A DNA stretch of 38,787 nucleotides from Anaerolineales bacterium. GTDB lineage: Bacteria > Chloroflexota > Anaerolineae > Anaerolineales > E44-bin32. The notes beneath the pieces were generated by a model. That model had not been told where the DNA came from. It ran no database searches and saw nothing but the letters and a program-made list of their open reading frames with translations. The stretch spans positions 1 to 38,787 of the forward strand of contig SOJU01000141.1 in assembly GCA_004376465.1 (NCBI GenBank), in the 5' to 3' direction. Position numbers and translations under genes: made by a program. This document shows, piece after piece, positions 25,037 to 26,270 of this stretch. Each line of letters begins with the position of its first letter. Positions within the stretch are counted from its first letter, which is position 1.

Positions 25037-25071
25037 AAAACCAGCCGGACGATTATGTTCGGCTGGTTTTT
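25037..25071 (+). terminator. Rho-independent terminator after DEAD-box helicase
   Basis: AAAACCAGCCG (25037-25047) / CGGCTGGTTTT (25060-25070) inverted repeat followed by T tract. Confidence 0.85.
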
Positions 25072-25190: not shown

Positions 25191-25326
25191 AAGCATTATT
25201 TTTTTTCAACGCAAGCTTCCTCGTTCGTACTTTATCGAAAATCAAATATGAATAGAAATCCATGGTTCAACAAATTAGACTGCGGCGGTGCACCCCAATT
25301 CTTGATTTAGTTGACGAAATTTCAAT

Positions 25327-25387
25327 TGTCAGATATAATCTGACATATGTCAGAAAGTAACTTACAAGTATCAGATACATTCTGACA
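25327..25387 (+). promoter_or_regulatory. Three tandem 19-bp operator-like palindromes at 21-bp pitch upstream of wHTH gene
   Basis: TGTCAGATATAATCTGACA (25327-25345), TGTCAGAAAGTAACTTACA (25348-25366), TATCAGATACATTCTGACA (25369-25387), followed by GAGG-N7-ATG. Confidence 0.8.
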
Positions 25388-25398
25388 GAGGTAACCGT

Positions 25399-25740
25399 AT
25401 GGAAATAGCTACATTGGAACCCATTCTGGGTTCAGTAAACGCTGAGAGAGTTCTTGTTTATGTACTCGCAAGGGGAGAAGGATATGCGCGCGAAATTGCC
25501 AGATTCTTCGGTGCAGATCCGGATTCAATACAAAAGCAACTAGTGAAGCTTGAATCCGGTAGTGTATTGACCAGCAAAGAGTATGGCCGAACCATCCTGT
25601 ATAAATTTAATCCCCGATACGCATTCCTGCCAGAGCTAAAGAGATTGCTCGAAAAAGCCCTGAGTTTCTATCCAGAGGGAGAGCGTGAGCGCCTTATGAT
25701 GTCAAGACGGCGCCCTAGGCGTAGAGGTAAGCCATTGTGA
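25399..25740 (+). CDS. Winged-helix (ArsR-like) DNA-binding protein
   Basis: EGYAREIARFFGADPDSIQKQLVKLESGSVLTSKEYGRTILYKFNPRY wHTH pattern with basic C-terminal tail. Confidence 0.72.
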   Translation: MEIATLEPILGSVNAERVLVYVLARGEGYAREIARFFGADPDSIQKQLVKLESGSVLTSKEYGRTILYKFNPRYAFLPELKRLLEKALSFYPEGERERLMMSRRRPRRRGKPL

Positions 25741-26270
25741 AGCCGATTCGAGACATGACTCAGGCCGAATTGGGTGCCTATGTCCAATCACACTTGAGCG
25801 CCAAAGGGATTGACGTTGTCTTATCAGGAGGCGCGGTCGTGGCAATCTACACTAATGGTAGGTATGTCTCGGGCAATCTAGATTTTGTCAATCGGTATTT
25901 TGTAAAGCGGTCGGTGATAAAAAGTGCAATTGAAGAGTTGGGATTTAAAGAAGCAGGAAGGCATTTCGAACACCACGATACAGAATACTTCGTAGAATTC
26001 CCTCCTGGGCCGCTTGCAATCGGCGAAGAATATAATATCAAGATCGACGAGTTCGAAATGGAAACAGGGATCCTGCGCTTAATCTCGCCGACCGATTGTG
26101 TGAAGGATAGACTAGTCTGGTATTACCATGACGGTGATAGACAGTGCTTATCACAAGCTATACTCGTGGCGCAAGATCATCAAATCGACATTGATAAAAT
26201 CAGAGAATGGTCAGACGGTGAGGGGAAACTTGAGGAGTTCGAAGAGATCGAGGCAGAGCTCCAAAGTTAG
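25737..26270 (+). CDS. Nucleotidyltransferase-fold-like protein
   Basis: VVLSGGAVVAIYTNGRYVSGNLDFV resembles the GG...R.S..D NTase motif; GTGA overlap with the wHTH gene. Confidence 0.6.
   Translation: MKPIRDMTQAELGAYVQSHLSAKGIDVVLSGGAVVAIYTNGRYVSGNLDFVNRYFVKRSVIKSAIEELGFKEAGRHFEHHDTEYFVEFPPGPLAIGEEYNIKIDEFEMETGILRLISPTDCVKDRLVWYYHDGDRQCLSQAILVAQDHQIDIDKIREWSDGEGKLEEFEEIEAELQS

Follow-up and report, generated by a model that had tools for sequence, protein, structure and literature searches.

Phased palindromic dyads and a covarying recognition helix in a winged-helix and nucleotidyltransferase operon of Anaerolineales

The DNA analysed here, hereafter the window, is a stretch of 38,787 nucleotides from an Anaerolineales bacterium (contig SOJU01000141.1 of assembly GCA_004376465.1). 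It contains three regularly spaced palindromes directly in front of a gene for a small winged-helix (wHTH) protein, which is followed by a gene for a nucleotidyltransferase (NTase)-like protein. This arrangement raises the question of which molecule reads the palindromes and to what end. A preliminary description predicted cooperative autorepression by the wHTH protein.

Palindromes, promoter and genes of the operon

The three 19-bp dyads have exactly the sequences and coordinates first given for them, as summarized in Table 1. Their starts are 21 bp apart and lie ahead of the wHTH start codon, the linkers between them are 2 bp long, and the perfect symmetry of dyad 1 with its 8-bp arms was also confirmed. 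However, the 4-bp gap that had been placed between dyad 3 and the ribosome-binding site was not found. Instead, the Shine-Dalgarno-like AGAGGT shares its first base with the end of dyad 3, and 6 nt separate it from the ATG. When the upstream region was scored for a comb of three dyads at 21 bp, its score of 18/21 was reached by none of 200 dinucleotide shuffles. As the TATAAT of a predicted promoter forms the centre of dyad 1, a protein bound there would directly block RNA polymerase, and dyads 2 and 3 would lie within the predicted 5′ leader, down to the ribosome-binding site. Farther upstream, a strong terminator-like hairpin is present at positions 25037-25070, just 3′ of a DEAD-box helicase gene, and may insulate the operon from upstream transcription.

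Table 1. Features of the operon and its upstream region in window coordinates (aa, amino acids; AF2, AlphaFold2).
Feature	Position	Strand	Description
Predicted sigma-70-type promoter	25311..25339	+	TTGACG-N17-TATAAT; 11/12 consensus matches
Operator dyad 1	25327..25345	.	TGTCAGATATAATCTGACA; TGTCAGA-TATAA-TCTGACA; perfect, centred on the -10 box; conserved in relatives
-10 box	25334-25339	+	TATAAT, inside dyad 1
Operator dyad 2	25348..25366	.	TGTCAGAAAGTAACTTACA; TGTCAGA-AAGTA-ACTTACA; imperfect, outer pairs 5/7
Operator dyad 3	25369..25387	.	TATCAGATACATTCTGACA; TATCAGA-TACAT-TCTGACA; one mismatch, outer pairs 6/7
Shine-Dalgarno-like site of the wHTH gene	25387..25392	+	AGAGGT; abuts dyad 3
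P0001, ArsR-like winged-helix protein, proposed autorepressor and antitoxin	25399..25740	+	113 aa; AF2, Foldseek
Recognition helix, residues 41-53	25519..25557	+	AF2 model
Specificity residues D42 and S43	25522-25524, 25525-25527	+	Covariation with operator bases
Codons of the conserved Arg-rich C-terminal tail	25705..25731	+	RRRPRRRGK; near-invariant in the alignment
RBS-like site of the NTase gene	25723-25728	+	AGAGGT; inside the tail codons
Nucleotidyltransferase-fold protein, proposed toxin	25737..26270	+	177 aa; GTG start, 4-nt overlap with the wHTH gene

The provisional assignment of the two genes as wHTH and NTase-like was right, based on AlphaFold2 models and their Foldseek matches. 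The wHTH protein is modelled confidently as a winged helix (pLDDT 89.6). Besides the single wHTH, the model has two helices in its C-terminal part and a short tail rich in Arg, the tail being of low confidence. Its structural matches are the ArsR/MarR repressors ZitR, CzrA, SqrR and SmtB (probability 1.00 for ZitR, CzrA and SmtB). At the sequence level it scores 21.8 bits against NF033788, below the cut-off of 55, and its best PADLOC match is PDC-M05A (E 3e-9). No Cys or His residue is present among the 113 residues of P0001, which therefore lacks the metal or thiol sites usual in ArsR proteins. The NTase is also modelled confidently (pLDDT 93.5), and the nearest folds in the PDB are 5uvd, MenT1, ANT(2'')-Ia and LnuA, with TM scores of 0.5-0.63. 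PADLOC matches to the NTase were marginal, the best being AbiEii with E values of 0.027 (2 of 14 members) and 0.042 (1 of 14), and searches against Pfam and NCBIfam gave no match above cut-off for either protein.

The catalytic motif of the NTase family is LSGG-x14-D-h-D, with D47 conserved in 53 of 55 members and D49 in 54. The NTase of the window reads SGNLD where its relatives have S-x-D-[LIV]-D, so that N47 replaces the near-invariant first Asp of DxD; the only other members deviating at either Asp are those of loci L018 and L047. If N47 is not an assembly error, this NTase copy may be catalytically dead, and thus perhaps not a working toxin. The repressor and operator of the window remain sharp.

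A 21-bp array whose spelling follows the recognition helix

Relatives of the operon were collected from Anaerolineales genomes, yielding 91 distinct loci after duplicate removal. The NTase occurs in 58 of 301 Anaerolineales genomes and the wHTH protein in 98 of 400, a few of the latter being distant wHTH paralogues, and almost no relatives were found elsewhere in the sample of the phylum. Scanning the contigs of named genomes gave a single near relative, which is 88% identical and comes from an Anaerolineales MAG, and the flanks of the site differ in a genome of the same genus. Outside the phylum, plasmid-borne relatives are present in Sulfurospirillum, Sulfurimonas, Bdellovibrio and Leptospira (L179, L180, L181, L182 and L183). 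These plasmid pairs of Campylobacterota, Bdellovibrionota and Leptospira are mostly annotated as hypothetical proteins. One relative was found among viral contigs and none among phage records. In the plasmid and viral loci an open wHTH frame lies directly 5′ of the NTase, except for the Leptospira noguchii copy, in which the wHTH frame is interrupted.

Conservation upstream of orthologues had been named as the check on the dyads. For 88 upstream regions, the best pair of 19-bp dyads was scored at each spacing from 10 to 40 bp and compared with shuffles. Only the 21-bp spacing was prominent (mean z 3.3); it was found in 58 of the 88 loci at 11/14 or better, while any other spacing reached that level in 14 loci at most. 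An array at exactly 21 bp with a half-site agreement of at least 23/28, a threshold passed by none of 264 mononucleotide shuffles, is present in 74 of the 88 loci, and about 14 have no clear array. A lack of conservation, which would have spoken against the prediction, was thus not observed. The 21-bp phasing is kept across the family, with the spelling of the half-sites drifting between operons. The arrays consist of two dyads in 57 cases and three in 17, the 2-bp linker is TA at 71 of 91 junctions, and the outer half-sites are as well conserved as the inner ones in both kinds of array. The -10 box begins 5 bp before dyad 1 in 45 of the 74 arrays, a fixed register that differs from that of the window's clade, where it sits inside dyad 1. 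The array also extends beyond the phylum: it scores 26/28 in Sulfurospirillum (0 of 200 shuffles) and persists weakly in Sulfurimonas.

Half-site spelling is common to all copies within one array and varies between operons, and includes TGTCAGA, TGACCTA, TAACCAA, TGACGGA, TGACGTC, TTACCGA and GTACTAC among others. To relate this variation to the adjacent protein, operator distance was compared with distance in windows of the wHTH protein as a partial correlation that takes account of distance over the remainder of the protein. The correlation is strongest for the recognition helix (0.34); in non-overlapping windows, the best of which is in the wing, it is 0.15 or less. Among all pairs of protein column and operator base, mutual information is highest for residue 42 and base 5 (1.15 bits), followed by residue 43 and base 6 (1.14 bits). 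With residue classes that were set after part of the data had been seen, Pro, Gln or Met at position 43 occurs with T6, Ser or Thr with G6 and Ala or Gly with A6 in 73 of 74 arrays, and Lys at position 42 occurs with G5, Arg with T5, most other residues with C5 and the DPD type with A5 in 71 of 74. Examples of matched protein and operator types are DPDS with TGTCAGA, DLKP with TGACGTC and DLYG with TAACCAA. The combinations KS, KP, DP, YG, RG and RS recur at positions 42 and 43, indicating that the two residues act nearly independently.

Shared ancestry was addressed with a tree built without the recognition-helix columns, on which the residue-43 class switches 15 times and base 6 switches 14 times. 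In 12 of 13 independent pairs the residue-43 class and base 6 change together, and in none do they change oppositely (sign test p 0.0005), though restricting the count to well-supported branches leaves only three such pairs. In ten loci fetched after the rule had been fixed, base 6 was correct in all ten, one of them with a more distant upstream array that was read by eye; base 5 was correct in seven, the other three being C/T or G/T ties. The Sulfurospirillum relative breaks the base-6 rule, having Ser with T6, and the code is therefore local. Loci L011 and L018 form a sub-family with the helix DYYP-IYDQ and TGATATA/TGATCTA operators, which departs from the main base-5 rule; in Sulfurospirillum L179 the similar spelling TGATATA goes with a different helix. 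Paralogues in the same genome differ at operator bases 5-6 in 7 of 8 pairs, compared with 85% of random pairs, which is not a significant difference.

Probable autorepression, its rivals and the proposed role of the NTase

Since operator spelling and the recognition helix of the neighbouring wHTH protein change in concert, that protein is the likely binder of the dyads, and together with the conservation of the 21-bp array upstream of orthologues this supports the autorepression originally predicted. Judged from sequence, the wHTH protein very probably represses its own promoter at these dyads. We propose that a wHTH dimer would occupy each 19-bp dyad with one recognition helix per 7-bp half-site, and residues 42 and 43 would set bases 5 and 6, respectively. 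Two or three such dimers would lie side by side at 21-bp (two-turn) intervals and, covering the -10 box and the DNA immediately 3′ of it, would exclude RNA polymerase. Cooperativity between them is plausible and would be compatible with the 21-bp phasing and 2-bp linkers. Translation of the NTase is probably coupled to that of the wHTH protein on a shared mRNA, and the NTase is most likely a growth-inhibiting nucleotidyltransferase that would be restrained by the wHTH protein, possibly via its Arg-rich tail.

The dyads might instead be operators of a regulator encoded elsewhere, with the adjacent wHTH protein serving only as an antitoxin. The link between the adjacent protein and the dyads is indeed drawn from comparison of sequences. 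However, the covariation is with the recognition helix of that very protein and goes beyond mere relatedness. In a pattern search of the whole assembly (2.9 Mb, 81% complete) TGTCAGA-N5-TCTGACA occurs at one mismatch or fewer only as dyads 1 and 3, and two-mismatch sites elsewhere in the assembly are not commoner than those of a reversed-pattern control. The array is thus local and self-directed rather than part of a detectable regulon, which speaks against a distant regulator with a regulon, and a regulator encoded elsewhere is very improbable. Leader RNA hairpins, acting in translational control or as a type III-like RNA antitoxin, are also conceivable, given that the predicted leader includes dyads 2 and 3 beside the ribosome-binding site and that these can pair as RNA (-13.8 kcal/mol). 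With a z of -1.45 this fold does not stand out, dyad 1 contains the -10 box and would not be transcribed from the predicted promoter, and there was no match in Rfam. Moreover, both arms of all copies change in step to one common half-site, a pattern that pairing by itself would not demand, and base identity tracks protein residues. We regard RNA hairpins as very improbable too. A further reading retains autorepression and changes only the binding unit, which would be the palindrome centred on the linker, TCTGACA-TA-TGTCAGA, instead of the 19-bp dyad. The operators of SmtB and CzrA have a 12-2-12 layout that resembles this register, and the predominance of the TA linker, with the junction itself palindromic, would fit as well. 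This register leaves the equal conservation of outermost and inner half-sites in two- and three-dyad arrays unexplained, and is rather unlikely.

The role of the operon is a separate matter. Among the 91 loci the NTase is intact in 55, broken in 16 and missing in 20; the wHTH gene accompanies each intact NTase, whereas 33 loci have a wHTH frame and no intact NTase. Operators above threshold are found in 27 of these 33 loci and in 47 of the 55 with an intact NTase (Mann-Whitney p 0.30), so that operator quality is no lower where the NTase has been lost. Loci with a solo wHTH gene and no NTase downstream (L104, L109, L118, L122, L125, L126, L127, L129, L132, L135-L137, L139, L142, L143, L146, L148 and L149) mostly retain clean 21-bp operator arrays. 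The Arg-rich tail is truncated or altered in 11 of the 33 loci without an intact NTase and in none of the 55 with one (p 6e-6), in a post-hoc comparison in which GK[EDI]L endings were accepted as intact for the count of 0/55. This suggests that the tail serves the NTase, by contact or because its codons hold the ribosome-binding site of the NTase gene, although general decay of orphan genes could contribute.

The one-sided loss, the patchiness of the distribution and the occurrence on plasmids are in keeping with a toxin-antitoxin module, and on balance we favour this assignment, with the NTase as the putative toxin. The main competitor is an autoregulated operon of another kind, in which the NTase would modify a small molecule, as antibiotic-type enzymes do, and the wHTH protein would be a ligand-sensing repressor. 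ANT(2'')-Ia and LnuA rank high among the Foldseek matches of the NTase, and the wHTH protein resembles ligand-sensing ArsR/MarR repressors. On the other hand, P0001 is devoid of a Cys/His sensor site, and the distribution, the plasmid occurrence and the frequent loss of the NTase with retention of the wHTH gene, never the reverse, are better accommodated by a toxin-antitoxin module. Hence a small-molecule NTase with a ligand-sensing repressor appears unlikely, if clearly worth keeping in mind.

Novelty and relation to known systems

Literature searches for a wHTH-NTase pair of this kind, or for toxin-antitoxin repressors with such a code, gave nothing relevant. What is new here is an array with 21-bp spacing shared across the family and a code of two residues, both in a wHTH-NTase module that has no name. 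More tentatively, the operons could represent an unrecognised toxin-antitoxin family of Anaerolineales and of plasmids in other phyla, with a near-modular two-residue specificity code, a rigid 21-bp array and mutually insulated copies within a genome. If so, the copies would be a natural library of orthogonal repressor-operator pairs. The close match of two helix residues to two operator bases, which recurs across one operon type, offers a testable natural DNA-recognition code for a small ArsR-like repressor, along with candidate orthogonal repressors. The wHTH-NTase pair, for which no Pfam, NCBIfam or PADLOC model matches convincingly, is also flagged as a likely toxin-antitoxin family.

In a study of the MerR family (Prot-DNA-Korr), mutual information between protein and operator columns pinpointed contact residues (PMC5045206). 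The present case differs in protein family and in that both sides of the code come from one local operon type. The wHTH protein shares with ArsR/SmtB repressors the fold (ZitR, CzrA, SmtB) and a dyad operator over the promoter; unlike them, it has no sensing Cys/His, scores below the family cut-off and is paired with an NTase. The NTase resembles MenT1 as a small enzyme of the same fold (Foldseek match 8an5_B, TM 0.52). However, the antitoxin MenA1 is a 7.4-kDa protein with no wHTH (PMC11375011) and is unrelated to the wHTH repressor that is the partner here. A type III toxin-antitoxin system, with transcribed repeats and an endoRNase toxin, was rejected: dyad 1 is promoter DNA, the partner has an NTase fold and there is no Rfam match. 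PDC-M05, a candidate defence pair of a nucleotidyltransferase and a HEPN protein (PMC12988326), has a related wHTH and gives the closest PADLOC profile match. In PDC-M05-related loci the wHTH is part of a protein of ~200 residues, fused to MNT and accompanied by HEPN, whereas in the window the wHTH and NTase are separate genes with no adjoining HEPN, and membership was rejected. A second, different pair of the PDC-M05 kind, wHTH-MNT with a HEPN-like protein, is present elsewhere in the same genome (L155:647-1679, G000:C30).

AbiE comprises an autorepressing wHTH antitoxin and an NTase toxin encoded bicistronically, with repeated operators overlapping the promoter (PMC3985639, PMC7319586). AbiEi has two domains, is a monomer in solution and binds two 23-bp repeats 3 bp apart (PMC7319586), and motif III of the AbiE NTase is KLxAaxxR (PMC3985639). 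Membership in AbiE was rejected on the criteria examined: Pfam and NCBIfam gave no AbiEii/DUF1814 match above cut-off and the PADLOC AbiEii models matched only weakly, the NTase family has an invariant K123-D124-R125 and Y/F130 at the place where motif III expects R, and the 113-residue ArsR-like protein has a single wHTH in place of a wHTH plus an antitoxicity domain, with 19-bp dyads at 21 bp. The hG[G/S]-x-DhD motif of AbiE does occur in the family as LSGG-x14-D-h-D, the window member having N47. Like the type IV system AbiE (AbiEi-AbiEii, with a DUF1814 NTase), the operon described here pairs wHTH and NTase genes bicistronically behind repeated operator sites over the promoter, and by analogy AbiE would be the known system that works most like it.
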